Shown here piece after piece: positions 9,288 through 33,407 of a stretch of 35,200 nucleotides of DNA. The notes under the pieces were generated by a model, which was not told where the DNA came from, made no database searches, and worked only from the letters and a program-made list of their open reading frames with translations. Origin of the DNA: a virus; IMG/VR virus record IMGVR_UViG_3300046757_000680, positions 1 through 35,200 of that record; one strand, written 5' to 3'. Positions within the stretch are counted from its first letter, which is position 1; each line of letters opens with the position of its first letter. The translations under genes were made by a program, and so were the position numbers.

Positions 9288-9662
9288 TTATTTTAGCTCC
9301 AATATTTGTGTTTCATCAAACATCTTGTCAAAGTTTATACTAACGCCACAACCACATGCTGATTGTGCGTTAGGGTTATTAACTTCAAACATAGATCCAA
9401 TTATGTCTTTTTTATAATTAATTTCTGTACCAACTAAAAACATAGTGCTATGCACACCGATTACAAAGGTACAGTTGTTGTCTGTTTTTAGGACTTCGTC
9501 GCCCTCATTAAGTTCATCTGGGCTGTTCAGTGTACCCCATTCATACTCAAAGCCTGCACAACCGCCGCCTTTTACATTTAAAGTGATTGCATAGCACCCG
9601 TGTTCGTTACATAAAGTGTCTATTTGTTGTTTTGCTGAGTCTGTTAGTGTACATATTGCCAT
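9288..9662 (-). CDS. iscA: IscA/HesB-type Fe-S cluster assembly protein, 124 aa
   Basis: This is an A-type Fe-S carrier that would bind iron or a cluster and pass it to apoproteins in the host cytoplasm. Counted from the ATG at 9662, the family cysteines are C35 (KGGGCAGFEY) and C103/C105 (SACGCG), matching the C-x(n)-C-G-C pattern of IscA, SufA and ErpA. I prefer this ATG because AAAGGGA sits just upstream; a GTG five codons earlier is the alternative. The length fits the family (about 105-125). A GATAAATA late-type box lies 21 bases upstream. The gene ends one base before the giant fibre gene, so the two are probably co-transcribed late. A-type proteins are known in some marine phages; together with iscU at 27201 it makes a partial ISC set. 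Confidence 0.9.
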   Translation of the reverse strand: MAICTLTDSAKQQIDTLCNEHGCYAITLNVKGGGCAGFEYEWGTLNSPDELNEGDEVLKTDNNCTFVIGVHSTMFLVGTEINYKKDIIGSMFEVNNPNAQSACGCGVSINFDKMFDETQILELK

Positions 9663-9682
9663 AGATTTCCCTTTCACATCAA

Positions 9683-10011: not shown

Positions 10012-11253
10012 CTAGTCTACATTCTTCCAAGTAAATGCTCCAAAGAACATTTCATCTTCTGACATCTGTCCCCAAGGCACACTTCTACTAGGATCAGGAT
10101 TCATAGGATTGTCTGCTGAATTATCAAATGCTCCTTCCACATGAAGTATAGTTCCTTTAGGTATATACTTAGGTTCACGCCAAGTATAACTTAATTGCCA
10201 AGCATAATCATACTTGGGTATGTCAATTAGTTCTTCCCAGGTACCATCCTCGTAGTACGCTGTTGCTTTCATGCTCTTGCCACGGAAGTGCATGTGTGGT
10301 AAGAACGTGTGTAACATGATATCTTGTTTGACAACAATTTCTGCTTCTTGTACAAAGTTAGGATCGTATGGCGGAATATTCGTCCAAGTATTTGGGAATA
10401 TACAAGCACAATCGCCTGCCATTCTTTCTTCTGGTACTACACCTTCGTCATGGAAGTATAAACCAATACGAGCTTTGTCCGTTCTAGCAGTTCCATCTGG
10501 TGTATAGTGCAACTGTAAATTTACAATTGAACCTGCACGTAACAGTCCACCAGTGTTAGCATCGTAGTAGTCTGGTGTGCCGCCTGGAACATAAGCACTG
10601 ATTTGTGCATAGTCCATATTGCCTTGTCCTTCTCCACTTGTACCTAGCAAGTTCATATTGCGTTCACCGGGTATACTAACTGTGTTTAGCATATGATGCA
10701 TAACAGTAGGTTCACTGGGTAAAAATTCTGAACCACGTAACCAACGGTCCTCTGTAAGTCCTAGGTCAACACTAGTATAACGATACGGAATAGCATTTGG
10801 ACCAAGTGTGCCCACAGCAGGTATTTCCTGTGCTGGTACTTCTATTATCATATCAGGTTTGCCATTCACCCATTCACTTGTAGAATATTCTGTAAGAGTG
10901 AGCGGATCAACATCGCCGTCAACAGGTGCGCCTGCATCAATCCACGCTACAATAGTCTCCATTTCTATGTGACTCAGCGTTCTATGATTGATTATGTCCT
11001 CAGCATACTTAGGATTAATTTGTCCTGGAGGCATACGTTTTGTTTCAATAGCTTCTTTAATTGCAGGCGCAAATGCTTGTAACATTCTATAGTCAGTCAT
11101 TGCCCACGGTGCTATACCGTTTTCTCTGTGGCAAGCCTGACATTGCTCTACAAAGATAGGTGCTACATTTTCTGCATAGTCTATAGCAACATCGTCGTGT
11201 GCATACGCAACAGATGTTAATAAACTACTTACTAGCAATATTAATTTTTTCAT
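10012..11253 (-). CDS. Exported cytochrome c / PHM-like copper monooxygenase fusion, 413 aa
   Basis: This appears to be a periplasmic redox protein with two parts. A signal peptide (MKKLILLVSSLLTSVAYA) is followed by a class I cytochrome c domain at about 25-110 with haem motif C38-Q-A-C41-H42 and a likely distal ligand M74 (RMPPG). The rest resembles copper type II ascorbate-dependent monooxygenases (PHM and DBM family). It has H186-H187-M188, H249 in LQLHY, H320-M-H322 in LPHMHFRG, and M402 in SEDEMFFG, the pattern of the CuH and CuM sites. The family hydroxylates C-H bonds using electrons supplied one at a time; a fused cytochrome could supply them. The substrate is unknown. The gene overlaps its paralogue by 29 bases, and AAAGGA precedes the ATG. 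Haem attachment would need the host Ccm system. Confidence 0.75.
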   Translation of the reverse strand: MKKLILLVSSLLTSVAYAHDDVAIDYAENVAPIFVEQCQACHRENGIAPWAMTDYRMLQAFAPAIKEAIETKRMPPGQINPKYAEDIINHRTLSHIEMETIVAWIDAGAPVDGDVDPLTLTEYSTSEWVNGKPDMIIEVPAQEIPAVGTLGPNAIPYRYTSVDLGLTEDRWLRGSEFLPSEPTVMHHMLNTVSIPGERNMNLLGTSGEGQGNMDYAQISAYVPGGTPDYYDANTGGLLRAGSIVNLQLHYTPDGTARTDKARIGLYFHDEGVVPEERMAGDCACIFPNTWTNIPPYDPNFVQEAEIVVKQDIMLHTFLPHMHFRGKSMKATAYYEDGTWEELIDIPKYDYAWQLSYTWREPKYIPKGTILHVEGAFDNSADNPMNPDPSRSVPWGQMSEDEMFFGAFTWKNVD

Positions 11254-12508
11254 TCCTTTCTTCCTTTAGTTTGTTGTATCCTTCATCGTCTAAGTGTGTG
11301 ATAGCAAGCCACGCATGAGTCATTTCATCTCCTGTACGTGAACCTCCCATTACCCACATATCAGGGTCTGGATTGTTTGGGTTATTTTCTGTATTGTCAT
11401 ACCATTGCTTTAGAACAATAACTGCTCCAGCTGGTAAGAGTGGTGCAACGTCCGGGTCATACAAATGACTGTGATGCCATGTTGCACTCCAATTACTTAC
11501 TTGGCTAATCTGTTCTGTGCGTCCTGTCTCTGGATAGAATATTTCTAAACTTGCTGCGTTCATACGCAAGTGTCCATGTGGTTGAAAACTATCTAGTCTA
11601 ACTGGGTGATCAAAACTGTGGAAGCCTTGTGTCATGTAATAACCATGTGGTGGGATAACTATATCGTCCTGATCCCCTAAGCGATATAAACTTAAATCTT
11701 GTTTGTATTTCAGTTGTTCGCTTTCCTCTTCGGTGTATAACCAAAGACCAATCTCTACCACGTTGTCTTTTATAACTGATCCTGGTGCCATTGCTCCAAG
11801 TCCACCTGGAAACATGTGTATGTCCCAACGTACTTGCGAGTTTGCTGGTAGTGTACGACATACTCCTTCTGGAACAATCTCTCCCCACTTTCCCATAGCA
11901 TACTCCGTGAGCATTGCTTGACGTCCTCCGTCTATAACAATATTTGAGTTTGCATGGTGGACTACTGCTTTTGCTTCGCCACGCGGCTTAACTTGTACCG
12001 CTTTAATACAACGGTCTTCAGTTAGACCTGTAGGAACCAAATGTTTGTGCCACAAGTCATTACCATTTGCAGGGATATCTATTGCTACACTTGGAATGAT
12101 TAAATTAGGTTGTCCAAAGTCGCCTTCAAAGTTCCATGCTTCTGGATCAGGAAGGTTAGCTGGTTGTACTACTATATCTTGACTACCATATTGTGCTCCT
12201 GCGTTTACCCACTCAACAACTGTGTCTATTTCATCTTGCGATAACCGCCAGTCACCTTGTAGGTCTTGAATGCCAATACCGTGATCGTATGCATACGGAG
12301 GCATTTCTCTGTTTGCTACACGCATCTGTATTAATGGAGCCCAAGGTCTTACTTGCTCGTATGTTTCAAAGCTCATTGGCCCAATACCACCCGCACGATG
12401 ACATACTACACAGTTATCGTTAATGATAGCTGCTACTTCGTTGGTATATGTTTGTGCTGATAGTACAAGCGGGAATAAAGCCGCTAATGCTGCTGTAATG
12501 TATTTCAT
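11225..12508 (-). CDS. Exported cytochrome c / PHM-like copper monooxygenase fusion, paralogue, 427 aa
   Basis: This is the first gene of the pair. A signal peptide (MKYITAALAALFPLVLSA) precedes a cytochrome c domain with C33-V-V-C36-H37 and probable distal M69 (REMPPY). The C-terminal part keeps most copper-site residues of the PHM family: H184-H185 (the third position is Ala rather than Met), H231 in WDIHMF, H311-G-H313 in FQPHGHLRM, and M396 in TGDEM. Its overall design equals that of the downstream protein, but the sequences are well diverged, so the duplication is old or the two were acquired as a pair. They may form a heteromer or act in sequence. The start lies inside a striking nested hairpin (12490-12553). 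It may be late expressed, since TTAAATAT lies in the leader. The function remains unproven. Confidence 0.75.
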   Translation of the reverse strand: MKYITAALAALFPLVLSAQTYTNEVAAIINDNCVVCHRAGGIGPMSFETYEQVRPWAPLIQMRVANREMPPYAYDHGIGIQDLQGDWRLSQDEIDTVVEWVNAGAQYGSQDIVVQPANLPDPEAWNFEGDFGQPNLIIPSVAIDIPANGNDLWHKHLVPTGLTEDRCIKAVQVKPRGEAKAVVHHANSNIVIDGGRQAMLTEYAMGKWGEIVPEGVCRTLPANSQVRWDIHMFPGGLGAMAPGSVIKDNVVEIGLWLYTEEESEQLKYKQDLSLYRLGDQDDIVIPPHGYYMTQGFHSFDHPVRLDSFQPHGHLRMNAASLEIFYPETGRTEQISQVSNWSATWHHSHLYDPDVAPLLPAGAVIVLKQWYDNTENNPNNPDPDMWVMGGSRTGDEMTHAWLAITHLDDEGYNKLKEERNEKINIASK

Positions 12509-15630: not shown

Positions 15631-16233
15631 CTATATCTCCTGTTGTTGATTATTTAATATAACTTGTGTAGGCAGTGTGTTAAAACTAATAACTATTCTG
15701 TTATCACTGCTGTTGTTTTCTCTAGTGTGATGCATTAAGTAACTGGGGAATAATATTAATCTACCAGTCACAGTATCTATTACTGCTTCTTTTGCAGTAA
15801 ATGGTGTGTCTAAAGCAGGTATATCTAATATTTTAAAATCGTTTAAAGGATTCTTCAAAACTAAAGGACATGTTTCTGCTTCTGCCGACACATATAATGC
15901 TCCGCTAATAGTACTAACTTTGTGTTGATGTTCTAATACTTTGCCATTAGGCGCCATAATATTAAACCAACTGCTGGTAATACTTAAATCTTGTAATCCG
16001 GTATTTTTTGCATATTCATTTACTGCTAGTGATAGCTGTTGTTTTATACTCAATAGTGCTTCTTGATCTAATAGATAAAGCTCGCCTTTAACAGTATCAT
16101 GACTACTTACGCCAGCAGATACTAATCCATGCTGTCCTGAAATATCTAAGGATTTAAAATATTCTTCATTGATATTTTTAGGTATATTAATACCATAAAT
16201 GCCAACTGGAGTAGGAAATAAGTTATGTATCAT
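15631..16233 (-). CDS. 2OG-Fe(II) oxygenase superfamily protein, 200 aa
   Basis: The protein starts MIHNLFPTPVGIYGINIPKN, a beginning shared with a phage and bacterial oxygenase family (TIGR02466-like, 2OG-FeII_Oxy_5). The double-stranded beta-helix signature follows: WFNIMAPNGKVLEHQHKVST with H102/H104, SGALYVS, LILFPSYLMHHTREN with H168/H169, and R179 in RIVISFN for 2-oxoglutarate binding. The enzyme would hydroxylate a protein, base or small molecule; the substrate is unknown. It abuts queD with no gap, and its end supplies AGGAGA as the queD ribosome site. The sigma-70 promoter immediately upstream leaves only six bases before the ATG, so the message may be leaderless. Confidence 0.75.
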   Translation of the reverse strand: MIHNLFPTPVGIYGINIPKNINEEYFKSLDISGQHGLVSAGVSSHDTVKGELYLLDQEALLSIKQQLSLAVNEYAKNTGLQDLSITSSWFNIMAPNGKVLEHQHKVSTISGALYVSAEAETCPLVLKNPLNDFKILDIPALDTPFTAKEAVIDTVTGRLILFPSYLMHHTRENNSSDNRIVISFNTLPTQVILNNQQQEI

Positions 16234-21870: not shown

Positions 21871-23397
21871 TTAAAATTTGTTGATTTTTTTATCAATATA
21901 TTCATGAAGGAATGGGCCTGCAACTAGATTAACTTTGCCTCCCGACTGTGCTTTTGACTGCATCTTTTGTTCTTCTAGCTCTTGATTAGAAAGTTTTGAA
22001 TGTGCTATCATTTCTGCATTTCCCATCTGCCAGTTGTCTAGTGCTGTTTTGTGATATAATTCTGCAATAATTTTATCAGATATCTTTTGTGCTTCAAACC
22101 AGTTCATCGAATCGTGTTCCCAAATAAACTGCTTTTTACTATAGTTGCCTGCTGAAAATGACATCTCGTGATTTATCATTCCATCTACCCAATATGGTCT
22201 TTTTTCTTCAGGCATTTCTCTAAGTCCGTACTTAGTTAAATTTTTACTAAATGCACTTACGTTTGTATATTCTTCTTCGCCGTTACTTAGGTCTTGTACA
22301 TCTAACGGAAACACAACCAAGCCTTCTTCATTCCAATTCTCTAATAACCAATTTCTAGTTCGCTTCCAATTCTTTTTGTTATCATGCGGAAGACCTACAA
22401 TTAAACTTATTGTACCTCTATATAGTCCAGATTGGCTTGTAATACGTTTAGCATCTAATATTGTTTGTTGTACCCTAGCAGGATCCATACCTTTGCCGAT
22501 TGTTCTACCACTGGCTTGATTAAATGTTTCAATGCCGTAATACTGACCACCAAACTTCATACGTGCAAGCTCAGTTATCATTTCTGGTTTTGTTGCCATT
22601 AGATCAGCTCTAATAAATCCACTGTAAAATGTTTCAAAAGGAAGTTTTTCAACTACGTCTGCAAATTTTGATATTTTACCTAATCGGTCATTGAATGTTT
22701 CATCTGCAACATAGTATCTAGTAACTCCGAACTTGTCAAAGTTATGTTTCATTTCATTATCAAAACTTTCAGCAGTTCTTGATGTATCCTCTTTAACTCC
22801 AAGTATAGGAAAATTACAAAAGTCACATTTAAATTTACAACCTCTAGAGAATTCAATAGTTAACCATTCGTAGTCTTTTACATAATCTCTATCTTCCATT
22901 ATAATACTATAATCTTTGAGATTGTATGCAGGGTATCTATTAAGTGCTTTAATTACTTGCTTCTTGCCAAAGTGTGCTACGTCATATCCAATAGGAGAAC
23001 TAGAAAATCCAGCAAGATTTCTAACTACGTCTAGCATTGCTACTTCGCCATAACTGTCTACAAATATATCAATATTTGGATCATCAATGTGTACACTATT
23101 CTGTCCACCTAGCACTGTTGTAATATGAGGCCAACGTTTCTTTAACCAAGCAGTTAGGCGTTTCATCTCTTCTGGCCAATAACTAAAGAAAGGACTAAAC
23201 CCAAAAAATAATGTGTCCTTGGTTATACTTTGTCTTATAAATTGATGTAGTTTATCTAAGGGCAAGTGTGGTGTAAAATCTACAACCTCAATATCACAAT
23301 CGTGTTGTCTAAGATAAGTTGCAATACGATGGGCGCCACTACTACGTTGAATAGGGTTTACCCTAGATGAAAAAATTAAACCATGTGTTTTAGACAT
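21871..23397 (-). CDS. Radical SAM protein with N-terminal B12-binding-like domain, 508 aa
   Basis: From the ATG at 23397 (MSKTHGLIFSSRVNPIQRSS), residues about 1-150 look like the Rossmann/cobalamin-binding domain of B12-dependent radical SAM enzymes (VLGGQNSVHIDDPNIDIFVD, then GEVA). The 4Fe-4S motif CxxxCxxC follows at C187, C191 and C194 (SRGCKFKCDFC). The barrel contains RYYVADETFND and GQYYGIETFNQ, and the C terminus is unassigned. The reaction cannot be read from sequence; methyl transfer or another C-H modification is possible. It follows an oxygenase-like gene after one base. It needs a 4Fe-4S cluster, of interest given the phage iscU and iscA. I saw no cobalamin DxHxxG motif, so B12 use is uncertain. 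Confidence 0.8.
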   Translation of the reverse strand: MSKTHGLIFSSRVNPIQRSSGAHRIATYLRQHDCDIEVVDFTPHLPLDKLHQFIRQSITKDTLFFGFSPFFSYWPEEMKRLTAWLKKRWPHITTVLGGQNSVHIDDPNIDIFVDSYGEVAMLDVVRNLAGFSSSPIGYDVAHFGKKQVIKALNRYPAYNLKDYSIIMEDRDYVKDYEWLTIEFSRGCKFKCDFCNFPILGVKEDTSRTAESFDNEMKHNFDKFGVTRYYVADETFNDRLGKISKFADVVEKLPFETFYSGFIRADLMATKPEMITELARMKFGGQYYGIETFNQASGRTIGKGMDPARVQQTILDAKRITSQSGLYRGTISLIVGLPHDNKKNWKRTRNWLLENWNEEGLVVFPLDVQDLSNGEEEYTNVSAFSKNLTKYGLREMPEEKRPYWVDGMINHEMSFSAGNYSKKQFIWEHDSMNWFEAQKISDKIIAELYHKTALDNWQMGNAEMIAHSKLSNQELEEQKMQSKAQSGGKVNLVAGPFLHEYIDKKINKF

Positions 23398-23398
23398 A

Positions 23399-23989
23399 CT
23401 AATAAGCCCAAAGAGCAAACCTAACATCAGGCTGATTTGTTACCCCATGTATTTCACTAAAATTAAAATAATGCCAGCAGTCTTCTTCTAATATATGAGA
23501 CTCTGCTTCTTCAATCATTTGCATTGGGATACCTACACTATCGTTTACACCTATTTCTTGGTGTTGTTCTTTAAGTTTATACCATGTTGTTTTTACAGCT
23601 GGACCGCCAGTTTTTAGTATGTATAATAATCCTTCTTTACGGAACGCTGGTGGATCAATATGAGGAGCGGTATGTTTCCCACCTGATACTACCTGCATTG
23701 CAAACTGTCGGTGAGAAAGAGTTGGAACTGACTTATAGTATTCTTTTAACTTGTCTTCGTATCTTTTAGACATTTCATAAAATCCAACGCTGCCAGTTGT
23801 ATCATGATATGCCTTTTCATCCGGTTTTAGTGTTACACCGTATTTTTCAAGTTTATCTTGTATTTGTCCGTAATCGCCGAACTGGTGGGTCATGCTTTCT
23901 TTGTTAAACTTTTTAACAGCATGTTTAACAATTTTAAATTTTAAAGCTAATGGGATTCTAGGGAGTTCGCCTAGTTTTTGATAGTACAT
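23399..23989 (-). CDS. Probable Fe(II)-dependent oxygenase-like protein (double-stranded beta-helix), 196 aa
   Basis: The N-terminal half is helical and basic (MYYQKLGELPRIPLALKFKI). The second half has a likely HxD...H iron site: HTAPHIDPPAF (H110, D112) and FNFSEIHGVTN (H181), with R190 (DVRFAL) placed where 2OG oxygenases bind 2-oxoglutarate. EGLLYILKTGG between them fits the core strands. It may belong to the 2OG-Fe(II) or JmjC/cupin superfamily; I cannot choose. It lies between a fibre-like gene and the radical SAM gene. Confidence 0.6.
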   Translation of the reverse strand: MYYQKLGELPRIPLALKFKIVKHAVKKFNKESMTHQFGDYGQIQDKLEKYGVTLKPDEKAYHDTTGSVGFYEMSKRYEDKLKEYYKSVPTLSHRQFAMQVVSGGKHTAPHIDPPAFRKEGLLYILKTGGPAVKTTWYKLKEQHQEIGVNDSVGIPMQMIEEAESHILEEDCWHYFNFSEIHGVTNQPDVRFALWAY

Positions 23990-23992
23990 ATG

Positions 23993-24670
23993 TTACCACC
24001 CTTCAAATGATATTCTTTTCCAAATTTTATCTTCACCGTTATAGTTAGCAACGCAATGATAAAAGTAGTTGTCGTCTATACAGACATCTCCTTTTAAATC
24101 TTGTTTGTAACCAATTGGATCGTTTATCGTCCTGTGTTCTATATTTAGCGTAGTTGGAAGATAGGTCTTTTTACTATCGAAGCCTAACATCATTTCATTG
24201 TTGGCAGTAAAGCACAATACTTCTTCAGGAAAATCTTCGTTAGTGCCTACATGAATATTAAAACGATAATCATCATTACTGTCTGTAAATGACAACCATT
24301 TGTTTACTGCCACTTTGTTGCTGCTTAAATAATCACTATTTTTTAGTATGTCTGATTCAATAATTGATGTAGTTATCATTTCTTCAACATGCAGATGTAG
24401 CGATTCAACATTGCCTGTTGTTACACTGCCTGAAAACAACCCGTCTATTGCTTCTATTTTATTATTAACTTTTATATTTTCTGTTGTTAATTTTAAGGCT
24501 GCTTCGTCCCATGTAAGTTCTACACCAGTATGTGTAATTGCTTGACTGTCATCTTTATAAACTGCAAGAGATCCTTTGACTCCTTGATCAATTTGGTTAG
24601 TGCAATTAATATAAGTGTCGCCTTCTAACCGTGTTATTGTTATTGGAGGTACTCCAATCAGCTTATCCAT
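23993..24670 (-). CDS. Fibre-like structural protein, 225 aa
   Basis: The protein starts MDKLIGVPPITITRLEGDTY. The middle is beta-rich and polar (GLFSGSVTTGNVESLHLHVE). The end (DLKGDVCIDDNYFYHCVANY, then WKRISFEGW) resembles the C-terminal tip module of many marine phage fibre proteins, where GDxxxDxNYxYxC precedes WKR. It is likely a short tail fibre or a fibre-associated protein. It overlaps the oxygenase gene upstream by 8 bases, so the two are translated together, which makes the fibre a candidate substrate (inference). Confidence 0.6.
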   Translation of the reverse strand: MDKLIGVPPITITRLEGDTYINCTNQIDQGVKGSLAVYKDDSQAITHTGVELTWDEAALKLTTENIKVNNKIEAIDGLFSGSVTTGNVESLHLHVEEMITTSIIESDILKNSDYLSSNKVAVNKWLSFTDSNDDYRFNIHVGTNEDFPEEVLCFTANNEMMLGFDSKKTYLPTTLNIEHRTINDPIGYKQDLKGDVCIDDNYFYHCVANYNGEDKIWKRISFEGW

Positions 24671-25286
24671 AGTTTACATCCAAATTGTATACGTTACCTG
24701 CTACTGATATTCTACAACCATCTTCAGTAAAAGGATACACTGTATGAAATACATCAGAAGGAAAAATAAACATATCGCCTGTTTTAGGAACCATTTTAAT
24801 TTGTGAGTTATTATTCATAAACTCAATTACGCCACGTACTTGACTATGTTCTGTTTCATACTCGTTTCTAATATTGTCTGGAATATCTACATAAATTATA
24901 TAACTTAATTCAGCAGTGTGTATGTGCATAGGATTAAAATCGTTTGCATACGTGTAGTTTACCCACAGCGGACCTAGCTGTGCTGAAAGTAGTTTTGCAG
25001 ATTCATTAATTGAAGTTTTTCTATAATACTCTTTCATTTTACTTACAAGATAGTCCATTATATATTGACCATCCCACTCATCAAAACTTAATTCGTATTC
25101 ATGCTCCATTGTTGCTACTAGTCTTTTGTGTACATTCTTTTCTTCGCCTAGCAACCTAGATGCCTCTGCTGATTGCTTTAACAATTTTAAAACTTTGTCG
25201 TTAACTGACGTTACTAGTATGCTTGGACCAAATGGATGTATAACTTGATCTTGTACTTGTTCTGTTTTAAGAGGACGCTTCTGCAA
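24663..25286 (-). CDS. 2OG-Fe(II) oxygenase superfamily protein, 207 aa
   Basis: The protein begins MQKRPLKTEQVQDQVIHPFG. The beta-helix core contains NPMHIHTAELSYIIYVDIP with H121 and H123, then KTGDMFIFPSDVFHTVYPF with H181 and R192 (CRISVAG). This is the same pattern as the family to which the 15631-16233 protein belongs, though the two sequences are diverged. The N-terminal ~100 residues are helical and family-specific. The gene overlaps its upstream neighbour by 20 bases and the fibre-like gene by 8. The substrate is unknown. Confidence 0.72.
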   Translation of the reverse strand: MQKRPLKTEQVQDQVIHPFGPSILVTSVNDKVLKLLKQSAEASRLLGEEKNVHKRLVATMEHEYELSFDEWDGQYIMDYLVSKMKEYYRKTSINESAKLLSAQLGPLWVNYTYANDFNPMHIHTAELSYIIYVDIPDNIRNEYETEHSQVRGVIEFMNNNSQIKMVPKTGDMFIFPSDVFHTVYPFTEDGCRISVAGNVYNLDVNYG

Positions 25287-26435: not shown

Positions 26436-26509
26436 TGGAGTGAGCGGAGAGAATCGAACTCTCATACACGGATTTGCAATCCGTTGCGTAACCATTCCGC
26501 CACGCTCAC
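26436..26509 (-). tRNA. tRNA-Cys (GCA)
   Basis: The minus strand folds into a cloverleaf with acceptor GTGAGCG/CGCTCAC, anticodon loop TTGCAAA on an ACGGA/TCCGT stem, and GTTCGAT in the T loop. The CCA end is encoded. It is the last tRNA of the array. Confidence 0.93.
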
Positions 26510-26513
26510 ATAA

Positions 26514-26603
26514 TGGCGGAGAGTGTGGGATTCGAACCCACGGAACACTTTCATGTTCGACGGTTTTCAAGACCGTTGCAATCGACCACTCTGCCAACTC
26601 TCC
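26514..26603 (-). tRNA. tRNA-Ser (TGA)
   Basis: The acceptor is GGAGAGT/ACTCTCC, the anticodon loop is CTTGAAA (TGA), and a long variable arm (GAACATGAAAGTGTTC), typical of serine tRNAs, precedes the T arm with GTTCGAAT. CCA is encoded. Confidence 0.94.
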
Positions 26604-26607
26604 TAAT

Positions 26608-26684
26608 TGGTCGGGGATGCAGGATTCGAACCTGCGACCTCTCGCTCCCAAAGCGAGCGCACTACCAAACTGTGCTAATCCCCG
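26608..26684 (-). tRNA. tRNA-Pro (TGG)
   Basis: The acceptor is CGGGGAT/ATCCCCG, the anticodon loop is TTTGGGA on a CTCGC/GCGAG stem, and the T arm is GCAGG-TTCGAAT-CCTGC. CCA is encoded. Confidence 0.94.
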
Positions 26685-26688
26685 TATG

Positions 26689-26764
26689 TGGTGGGCCCGG
26701 TAGGATTTGAACCTACGATCAATGCGTTATGAGCGCACTGCTTTAACCACTAAGCTACAAGCCC
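26689..26764 (-). tRNA. tRNA with CAT anticodon (Ile2 more likely than Met)
   Basis: The acceptor is GGGCTTG/CGGGCCC with wobble pairs, and the anticodon loop is CTCATAA (CAT). The D arm (AGTGGTTAAAGCAG) and TTGATCG after the anticodon stem look closer to bacterial tRNA-Ile2, in which TilS changes the C to lysidine so AUA is read, than to elongator tRNA-Met. AUA is common in this A+T-rich DNA. Sequence alone does not settle it. CCA is encoded. Confidence 0.85.
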
Positions 26765-26768
26765 TTAT

Positions 26769-26842
26769 TGGCAGGCGTGGACGGAGTCGAACCGCCGCTT
26801 TCGGTTTTGGAGACCGACGTGCTTCCATAACACTTCACACCC
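26769..26842 (-). tRNA. tRNA-Trp (CCA)
   Basis: The anticodon loop is CTCCAAA on a TCGGT/ACCGA stem, the acceptor is GGGTGTG/CACGCCT with a G-U first pair, and the T arm holds GTTCGACT. CCA is encoded. It is the first tRNA transcribed and starts within two bases of an upstream terminator T tract. Confidence 0.9.
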
Positions 26843-27197: not shown

Positions 27198-27205
27198 TAT
27201 TTATG
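27198..27205 (-). promoter_or_regulatory. Possible late-type box (CATAAATA) at the iscU stop
   Basis: The minus strand reads CATAAATA across the iscU stop codon. It is only seven bases from the zinc-ribbon ATG, so a transcript from it would be nearly leaderless; it may be chance. Confidence 0.25.
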
Positions 27206-27584
27206 ACTTCGACTTGTCTTTGTAATCTTTTACGGCAGCTTTGATTGCGTCTTCAGCTAGTACTGAGCAATGTATTTTTACTGGAGGCAAAGCGAGTTCG
27301 TTTGCAAGTTCTGTATTTTTGATCTTAGTTGCATCCTCCAAGGACATCCCTTTAACCCACTCTGTGAGCAGACTAGAACTAGCAATAGCACTCCCGCACC
27401 CGTATGTTTTAAACTTTGCATCTTCAATAATACCATCGTCGTTTACTTTGATTTGTAGTCGCATAACATCGCCACATGCTGGAGCACCTACCATGCCTGT
27501 ACCTACACCGTCCGTGTCTGGATCCCACTTGCCTACATTTCTTGGGTTTTCATAATGATCAATTACTTTATCAGAATAAGCCAT
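27201..27584 (-). CDS. iscU: IscU Fe-S cluster scaffold protein, 127 aa
   Basis: IscU builds 2Fe-2S and 4Fe-4S clusters with sulfur from IscS and passes them on with HscA/HscB. All key residues are present at the same numbering as E. coli IscU: C37 and D39 (GAPACGDVM), C63 (YGCGSAIASSS), H105 and C106 (KIHCSVLAEDAI), and the HscA-binding LPPVK at 99-103. The length is full. The start MAYSDKVIDHYENPRNVGKW is the family start. It is coupled to the 49-residue gene upstream by TAATG and precedes a zinc-ribbon gene. Because scaffold and chaperone sites are intact, it could plug into the host ISC machine. The similarity is host-like, suggesting capture from a proteobacterium. Confidence 0.96.
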   Translation of the reverse strand: MAYSDKVIDHYENPRNVGKWDPDTDGVGTGMVGAPACGDVMRLQIKVNDDGIIEDAKFKTYGCGSAIASSSLLTEWVKGMSLEDATKIKNTELANELALPPVKIHCSVLAEDAIKAAVKDYKDKSKS

Positions 27585-30469: not shown

Positions 30470-30544
30470 TGGTGCCGATTGAGAGATTCGAACTCCCGAC
30501 CTACGGTTTACAAAACCGTTGCACTACCACTGTGCTAAATCGGC
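30470..30544 (-). tRNA. tRNA-Thr (TGT)
   Basis: The acceptor is GCCGATT/AATCGGC, the anticodon loop is TTTGTAA (TGT) on an ACGGT/ACCGT stem, and the T loop is GTTCGAAT. CCA is encoded. Its 5' end abuts the stop codon of the 25-residue zinc-knuckle gene, so it must be cut out of a shared transcript. Confidence 0.93.
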
Positions 30545-32681: not shown

Positions 32682-32793
32682 CTTCAGGTAATCTCCCTAT
32701 TTCTTTAGTTTCTTTTGCACTATAATATAGTGTAATGCCTATACAAATAGGAGCAATCAACATTACACATCCTATTCCTAATATTGCAATCAT
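32674..32793 (-). CDS. Small membrane peptide, 39 aa
   Basis: The ORF opens [20 protein letters not shown], one membrane helix, and ends [13 protein letters not shown]. Its ATG overlaps the clpP stop (ATGA). The coupling on both sides and the clean hydrophobic pattern support it. Confidence 0.5.
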
Positions 32794-33407
32794 CGCTTGT
32801 CGACTACTTTGTCAGCAAGTCCGTTTTCTACAGCCTCTTGTGCAGTTAAGAATGTATCAAACTTCATTGTTTCAAACAGTTCTTCGTACGTTTTGCCTTT
32901 TGTGTTATGACGTACATATAATTCTGTTAAACGCTTGTTGATTTTTTGCGACTCTTCGTAGTGTCGTTTAGCATCTTCAAACTGAAGTTCTTGTACGTGT
33001 ACGCTGCCGCTTGTGCCAGGAGTACCTGAACTTACTCTGTGGATCATTGTACGTGACTCTGGCAACACTACACGCTTGCCTGCTGTACCTGCTTGTGCTA
33101 GGAACGAGCCCATTGAACATGCTTGACCCATTACAATTGTACGCACATCACATTTGATGTACTGCATAGTATCGTAGATAGCTAATCCTGCTGTTACAGC
33201 ACCGCCTGGACTGTTGATATATAAATTAATTTCTTTGTCTGGATTCTCAGACTCAAGGTACAGCATTTGTGATACAATAACATTTGCCATATTATCTTCA
33301 ACCGGACCGTTAAGCATAATAATGCGGTCCTTCATTAAGCGACTGTAAATATCCCAAGAGCGTTCGCCGCGAGCTTCTTGTTCAACTACCATTGGAATAA
33401 GTGGCAT
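32790..33407 (-). CDS. clpP: ClpP-like ATP-dependent protease proteolytic subunit, 205 aa
   Basis: ClpP forms a tetradecameric serine protease chamber. Family marks are [19 protein letters not shown], catalytic S98 (GQACSMGS), H123 (TMIHRVSSG) and a likely D184 ([20 protein letters not shown]). The distance from His to Asp is about 12 residues longer than in E. coli ClpP, in the handle region, as in divergent phage and plastid forms. It lacks a long propeptide. No Clp ATPase gene is in the window, so it may pair with host ClpX or ClpA, or act in virion maturation. Phage clpP is known from marine myoviruses. Confidence 0.92.

Follow-up and report, generated by a model that had tools for sequence, protein, structure and literature searches.

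Two overlapping genes, called A and B here, were analyzed in a 35.2 kb virus record of IMG/VR (IMGVR_UViG_3300046757_000680; this whole stretch is referred to as the window). With moderate confidence, we propose that A and B encode exported copper-dependent monooxygenases with a built-in cytochrome c donor, and that T4-like marine phages captured them from a gammaproteobacterial family. The genes lie in a virus genome, among viral genes, and have cellular relatives, as auxiliary metabolic genes do. Their most likely function is that of a late-expressed periplasmic monooxygenase system of this auxiliary metabolic kind, for which we infer a substrate and a benefit below.

An earlier note on this DNA had described two overlapping genes, and both open reading frames are indeed present (Table 1). 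The end of A runs into B over 29 bases (11225-11253), with gene starts taken as the first possible start codon, which makes overlaps and protein lengths approximate. A and B are 26% identical over their full length (BLASTP, E 4e-31) and thus form a tandem pair of paralogs. In both, the N-terminus is signal-like, as read from the sequence, and is followed by a CxxCH segment, an MPP motif and a domain that contains HH, H and HxH and, further on, a late Met. The heme and copper-site residues listed in the earlier note were correct, except for the histidine pair of B. This pair is H186/H187, flanked by M185 and M188, and not H186-H188.

AlphaFold2 models were obtained for A (pLDDT 79.9, pTM 0.77) and B (pLDDT 72.2, pTM 0.62). 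In Foldseek searches against the PDB, peptidylglycine alpha-hydroxylating monooxygenase (PHM) and dopamine beta-hydroxylase (DBH, also DBM) ranked first for both models (E 1.6e-11 for A, 4.1e-11 for B). With VIA-align, A reached a Z of 19.7 with DBH (root mean square deviation 3.5, 262 residues aligned) and 19.2 with PHM, the next unrelated fold scoring 9.2. For B, Z was 17.0 with DBH (3.4, 263 aligned), 15.9 with PHM and no more than 8.3 with any unrelated fold. The predicted models thus both show the two-domain beta-sandwich fold of copper type II monooxygenases. The comparison with PHM and DBM had been suggested in the earlier note; both models match DBH/PHM far above other folds.

The ligand register was obtained by alignment. 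A deep profile, made of 54 rows of alignment A3 and 120 bacterial rows (102 of them distinct; the chimeric contig L153, described below, accounts for two of the 120), aligned A 184-406 with PHM 107-324 (E 6.2e-5 as a single comparison; probability 64.7). In the structure alignments (A3 and A4), one of the rows is L153, and the two bacterial rows just mentioned are L153 and its copy L156. All six PHM copper ligands (6/6) landed on A residues that are invariant among viral rows, each kept in 99-100% of the bacterial rows. Only this deeper alignment, including the 120 bacterial rows, brought the PHM alignment out. The register supports the view that the six ligands would form CuH and CuM sites as in PHM. 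Other PHM residues, namely Q170, R240, N316 and Y318, align with D229, Q309, H398 and W400 of A and are not kept. We take R240, N316 and Y318 to be peptide-binding residues of PHM, and Q170 is a proposed electron-path residue. Since the peptide-binding residues are replaced in A, peptide amidation is unlikely, and so is the idea that A and B are peptide-amidating PHM proper. Neither protein passes an NCBIfam cutoff, neither has a PHROG match at E 0.01, and a single-sequence search of the PDB chain sequences gave no PHM match. With no PHROG match and with Pfam scores under cutoff (see below), A and B look unannotated.

The heme segment was identified by its CxxCH and MPP motifs. The Met of MPP (A M69, B M74) is invariant among viral rows, and M69 of A is the presumed distal heme ligand. 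Across the 120 bacterial rows, M69 is present at a fraction of 1.00 and CxxCH in 93-95%. The Pfam scores for cytochrome c are under the cutoff (18.6 bits for A and 14.6 bits for B, versus 27 for Cytochrome_CBB3). Structure prediction, ligand alignment and viral context together support the fusion, suggested earlier, of a CxxCH cytochrome c to a PHM-like copper domain.

Conservation was assessed on full-length viral rows, window included (72 for A, 69 distinct; 55 for B, 54 distinct). No row deviates at CxxCH, the Met of MPP, HH, H, HxH or the late Met (M396 in A, M402 in B). The dN/dS ratio was between 0.064 and 0.116 in 13/13 hand-picked pairs, and purifying selection on A and B is strong. 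These ratios, together with the strong fold matches, indicate that residue conservation goes beyond chance.

Table 1. Positions in the window of genes A and B, of their motifs and putative metal ligands, and of other genes named in the text.
Feature	Positions	Strand	Remarks
Gene A	11225-12508	-	427 aa, upstream member; signal-like N-terminus, cytochrome c segment, PHM-like copper type II monooxygenase domain
A 33-37, CVVCH	12398-12412	-	Heme attachment motif; invariant in 72/72 A rows
A 69-71, MPP	12296-12304	-	M69 presumed distal heme ligand; invariant in 72/72
A 131-411	11276-12118	-	PHM/DBH-like copper unit; VIA-align Z 19.7 DBH, 19.2 PHM
A H184/H185	11954-11959	-	PHM H107/H108 (CuH site) by profile alignment
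A H231	11816-11818	-	PHM H172 (CuH site) by profile alignment
A H311-x-H313	11570-11578	-	PHM H242/H244 (CuM site) by profile alignment
A M396	11321-11323	-	PHM M314 (CuM site) by profile alignment
Gene B	10012-11253	-	413 aa, downstream member; domains as in A
B 38-42, CQACH	11128-11142	-	Heme attachment motif; invariant in 55/55 B rows
B H186/H187	10693-10698	-	Same alignment column as A H184/H185
B H249	10507-10509	-	Same alignment column as A H231
B H320-x-H322	10288-10296	-	Same alignment column as A H311/H313
B M402	10048-10050	-	Same alignment column as A M396
IscA/HesB-like Fe-S protein (PF01521)	9288-9677	-	Neighbor downstream of B; possible member of the system
IscU-like protein (PF01592)	27201-27584	-	
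Two 2OG-Fe(II) oxygenase-like proteins and radical SAM protein	15631-16233, 24663-25286, 21871-23427	-	Radical SAM protein with weak B12-binding match
Lipoprotein-like protein, 683 aa	27966-30017	-	Zinc-metallopeptidase motifs
ClpP-like protease	32790-33407	-	
Five clustered tRNA genes	26436-26842	-	Cys, Ser, Pro, Met, Trp
tRNA-Thr	30470-30544	-	Apart from the cluster

A search for the pair in virus and bacterial genomes, also proposed at the outset, showed it to be widespread in IMG/VR and recovered relatives in bacterial gene clusters. At least 244 IMG/VR stretches carry a relative of A and at least 113 a relative of B; these totals are lower bounds that lean towards the query, as the viral scans detect only relatives sharing a short peptide pattern and the best 80 were kept. 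The best 80 of the A scan and the best 80 of the B scan correspond to 116 distinct contigs. A is followed by B within 680 bases in 80 of these (54 overlapping, 12 at 0-200 bases and 14 at 201-678). In the rest, A stands without B despite at least 3 kb of downstream sequence (19 contigs), the contig ends less than 3 kb past A (9), or it is cut before B (8). In a widened set, 253 loci were pooled into 138 distinct groups by a common 600-base stretch of A or B. A and B are both present in 67 groups, A stands without B over at least 3 kb in 46, the sequence ends less than 3 kb past A in 17 and is cut before B in 8. B clearly without A was found in 0/138 groups, most loci having been fetched by A. 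The B scan provides a fair test: 72 of its 80 loci also carry A, and the remaining 8 are cut at most 583 bases upstream of B. As A is seen alone and B only with A, we infer that A is the core enzyme and B an accessory. No match to A or B was found at E 1e-3 in 50,697 catalogued phage records.

A bacterial origin of the contig was ruled out by the IMG/VR record and the viral gene context; phage genes surround A in related contigs. Of 92 loci with at least eight other genes, 77 are joined by common gene families, and the other 15 split into six separate groups, one of which is that of the window (8 loci). The window's group carries genes for UvdE, a QueD-like protein, a glycosyltransferase and a DNA ligase. 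It also encodes a protein of 2926 aa that gives weak, partial matches to proteins of cyanophages, pelagiphages and other phages; among the matches listed, these span at most 11% of its length, and some of the matched proteins are annotated as tail fiber. The other sampled groups contain major head, scaffold, tail tube and head protease genes, and genes for helicase, NrdA/NrdB, thymidylate synthase, SbcC-like and UvsX-like proteins. We read these neighbor gene sets of A as T4-like.

The surroundings of A also bear on the timing of expression. In 25/130 groups, a gene related to that for the major head protein of L040 (phrog_138) is found upstream of A, at a distance of up to 209 bases in 22 of them. 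An exact TATAAATA, which we take to be the T4 late-promoter consensus, occurs within 120 nt upstream of A in 33/112 groups, versus 49/2240 mononucleotide shuffles. Judging from these neighbors and boxes, A and B are probably expressed late in phages.

Several other genes were noted around A and B. In 21/130 groups, a gene cluster that includes a lipoprotein-like protein of 63 aa (L075:3828-4019 and related) is found where A ends, at a median offset of -3 bases from its stop; the member scanned has no PHROG match. These neighbor families of the phage loci are single-linkage clusters, and a name, where given, comes from one member. IscA-like genes are present in the loci of 26/116 viral contigs. 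Besides its IscA/HesB-like gene, the window carries an IscU-like gene, and in L017 an IscU-like gene lies directly 3' of A. With two 2OG-Fe(II) oxygenase-like genes and a radical SAM gene, the 35 kb window is oxygen- and metal-rich in gene content. The 683-aa lipoprotein-like protein has the motifs HEVGHAMGLGH and HELGHTVGLAH and weak Reprolysin/M10 matches. The best PHROG match of the ClpP-like protease, so called by its look, is named head maturation protease.

Bacterial relatives were sought to trace the source of the pair. Genomes were scanned with B through two peptide patterns only. This gave a Gammaproteobacteria metagenome-assembled genome (MAG; G002, locus L154), a Pirellulales MAG (G003, L155) and, for G001, the chimeric contig L153. 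Of 99 genomes sampled from the family of G002, 79 match the A model; 76 do so in more than 10 places, and 68 reach E < 1e-100. One of these 68 is G001, whose strong match is read as due to L153. In the order sample, 24/293 genomes match, six at E < 1e-100, and all six are also in the family sample. In the class sample, 5/274 match and only G002 does so at E < 1e-100. The A4 profile has matches in 58/59 genomes of the class of the Pirellulales MAG. One bacterial A-type protein is 64-78% identical to viral A (80 listed), and the domain order and ligands of A and B are kept in the 120 bacterial rows.

In the tree of B, the 28 viral rows group together in a single clade with a support of 100, and L153 falls within it. 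L153 (a Pseudomonadales MAG contig, JALRBG010000283.1) was considered as a bacterial source of the short B and rejected. It is read as chimeric because its GC content drops near 5 kb, from 0.50-0.64 to 0.38-0.45, where a phage-like B and an A fragment begin. In the tree of A, a single clade of 46 viral rows was not rejected (p-AU 0.70) and had the better likelihood. A return transfer of A from phage to bacterium, suggested by a quick tree that put three bacterial rows inside the viral clade, was discarded since the constrained viral clade was not rejected. The viral A rows L195, L223 and L235 are placed elsewhere in the tree and may represent separate captures. L195 carries a major head protein, L223 a UvsX-like protein, and L235 a nucleotidyltransferase match (one gene scanned).

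The source of the phage genes is likely to be one Gammaproteobacteria family. Its name, Pseudohongiellaceae or the sister HTCC2089, is a guess, and nothing ties G002 to either. Both are described as little studied, and HTCC2089 as rich in oxygenase genes, in passages that make no mention of copper (PMC8371827).

The organization of the bacterial genes was described on 20 loci, hand-chosen around strong A hits, four of which (L370, L373, L382 and L387) end at a contig edge. In the usual layout, a B of 566-638 aa with an N-terminal extension is divergent from a gene called P, with one to five copies of A beyond it. Nineteen loci contain P, which adjoins A in 16, B is present in 14 and adjoins P in 13, and more than one A is present in 13; six of the 20 loci show no B. 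P encodes a protein of about 310 aa, secreted by its look, with a motif P.F.GW..N.DG in several (for example L181:6400-7338 and L376:11921-12874), and no Pfam match was found for the three scanned. The neighboring gene families, which are single-linkage clusters each named from one member, include MFS (11 of the 20 loci), beta-lactamase-fold hydrolase (10), GMC oxidoreductase (5) and gluconate-2-dehydrogenase-3-like subunit (5). In G002, three scanned genes near A loci match PQQ dehydrogenases.

The B of the window is without the N-terminal extension of its bacterial-cluster relatives, which is called redoxin-like from one sub-cutoff match of bacterial B (AhpC-TSA, 18.9 bits versus 26). When bacterial B with this extension was used as query, there was no viral pattern match, in a scan that detects near-identical peptides only. 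A split form, redoxin-like/cytochrome plus PHM, surfaced among phage loci fetched by A. In L264, the first open reading frame, with redoxin-like and CxxCH parts, matches residues 4-272 of bacterial B (36%) and has no Pfam match. The second matches residues 274-566 of bacterial B (55%) and residues 116-412 of window B (58%). A gene for the copper protein CopC follows this split B. Thus, in loci of the L264 type, some phages appear to retain the longer bacterial B in pieces, together with a copper carrier. The lineage of the window differs in its shorter B. CopC was found in 4/138 groups (L193, L262, L263 and L264). A separate small cytochrome c of 95-128 aa, related to that of L264, was found in 18/138 groups, with CxxCH in 31/31 genes; the four scanned (L264, L193, L028 and L053) are all above the Pfam Cytochrom_C cutoff. 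We read CopC and the small cytochrome c as a copper and electron supply.

A sequence of events can be proposed from these features. The signal peptide would export A and B to the periplasm, and the host cytochrome c maturation system would presumably load heme onto CxxCH. Periplasmic or quinol-derived electrons could enter the fused heme, in some phages through the extra small cytochrome c, and would then pass to CuH (HH/H). At CuM (HxH/M), O2 would be activated and a C-H bond of a small organic substrate hydroxylated, by analogy with PHM/DBH chemistry. In bacteria, nearby alcohol-oxidizing enzymes (PQQ-type, or GMC with the gluconate-2-dehydrogenase-3-like subunit) could oxidize the product further. 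In the infected cell, the phage genes may sustain substrate oxidation and electron flow. Either C-H hydroxylation or electron diversion had been suggested as a role before, and the bacterial gene neighborhood leans to hydroxylation. A wider claim, to which we give about an even chance, is that a self-contained periplasmic copper monooxygenase system with a heme relay, with A as core and B as accessory, is carried by many T4-like marine phages and expressed late. It would stem from a single gammaproteobacterial family, would have spread among phages, and would make infection oxidize a marine organic compound. The extra parts found in some lineages (cytochrome c, redoxin-like/cytochrome module, copper carrier) belong to the same joint claim.

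The fused cytochrome c of both A and B and the extra small cytochrome c in 18 of the phage groups could also be explained by an electron sink. In this case, the heme-copper enzymes would pass respiratory electrons to O2 in the periplasm to avoid over-reduction, with little or no specific substrate. We consider this unlikely, as the CuM-type ligands for PHM-like hydroxylation are invariant and the bacterial clusters, with a transporter, hydrolases and, in part of them, alcohol-oxidizing enzymes, resemble a catabolic unit. Modification of the envelope is a slightly less probable explanation. A and B would then oxidize a surface or envelope component, blocking superinfection or aiding lysis, which fits the signal-like N-termini, the late-promoter-like boxes upstream of A in some groups and the presence near A, in 34/130 groups, of a gene cluster that includes an endolysin-like protein (one member identified). 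In bacteria, however, this family is found in clusters that look metabolic and contain several copies of A, and many of the phage neighbors are merely late structural genes. It is improbable that A and B act in copper or redox homeostasis, binding and handling copper or sensing O2 with no monooxygenation: CopC adjoins the variant operon in four phage groups, but few groups have it and it more plausibly serves to supply copper, and both copper sites and the heme residues are kept under strong purifying selection. Least credible is a structural role, with jelly-roll-like domains decorating the virion and metal sites as relics, since the location among structural genes and the weak fold matches to viral capsid jelly rolls (Z about 7) are outweighed by signal-like N-termini, invariant heme and copper ligands, PHM/DBH matches far exceeding those to capsid folds and bacterial relatives in non-viral clusters.

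Several results weigh against our proposal of captured, exported and late-expressed copper monooxygenases. The Pfam gathering cutoff was missed, B scoring 18.3 bits for Cu2_monoox_C versus 23 and A not being listed. A profile search of PDB sequences gave no PHM, and a shallow profile failed against PHM, with a probability of 0.3% when led by B and 4.3% when led by A. The window's own A is without TATAAATA just upstream, and 79/112 groups are without the exact box. P was not found among the genes of at least 80 aa in the 253 viral loci (0 hits at E 1, with a profile from six proteins; L184:6127-6954, one of the six, gave a poor alignment and probably does not belong to the family), so that the phage system may work differently. 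GMC genes occur in just 5/20 bacterial loci. The host would be the same gammaproteobacterial family as the source, a deduction from gene ancestry. Phage IscU is about equally close to the source family (78-84%) and to other members of the phylum (up to 83%). IscU was also tried as a host marker and was not decisive, with matches in 25/39 family genomes and 138/200 phylum genomes.

Altogether, the phage abundance, the A/B pairing in phages and bacteria, the cytochrome and CopC variants and the likely source family are new as far as we could find. The cytochrome c-PHM fusion itself is of a known type, a bacterial family widespread in genome searches. No description of a phage PHM-like or cytochrome c-PHM system was found among the papers listed in literature searches, judged by titles and abstract openings, with preprints and most subscription papers outside the scope. 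The frequency and conservation of this enzyme pair among marine phages suggest an oxidation step that it pays phages to carry. If the proposal is true, A and B represent a heme-fused form of PHM/DBH copper chemistry, with the electron donor within the same chain. The findings also draw attention to a bacterial family that keeps several copies of a copper monooxygenase gene in a cluster.

Compared with known systems, A and B are closest to PHM and DBH/DBM, with which they have in common the fold (Z 15.9-19.7) and the six copper ligands in the same order. They differ from these enzymes by their fused cytochrome c, their prokaryotic or viral origin and a sequence similarity at the detection limit, and from PHM by the four replaced residues (R240, N316, Y318 and Q170, which are Q309, H398, W400 and D229 in A). 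The bacterial cytochrome c/PHM-like proteins of the Gammaproteobacteria family and of the class of the Pirellulales MAG, which to our knowledge are uncharacterized, have domain order and ligands in common with phage A and B. Bacterial B has an N-terminal extension and adjoins P. The B of the window, in contrast, is the shorter of the two and lies in tandem with A, with which it overlaps; no P hit was obtained among the 253 viral loci. T4-like marine phages carry auxiliary metabolic genes; A and B likewise are host-type genes among late genes on the same backbone, but are without match in the 50,697 catalogued phage records. Virus-borne pmoC and amoC encode single subunits of membrane copper monooxygenases and are carried by aquatic phages as metabolic genes. 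They are also phage-borne copper monooxygenase genes, but their products are unrelated membrane proteins that make up only a single subunit of a complex. A and B, in contrast, each hold the residues of both copper sites together with an electron donor.

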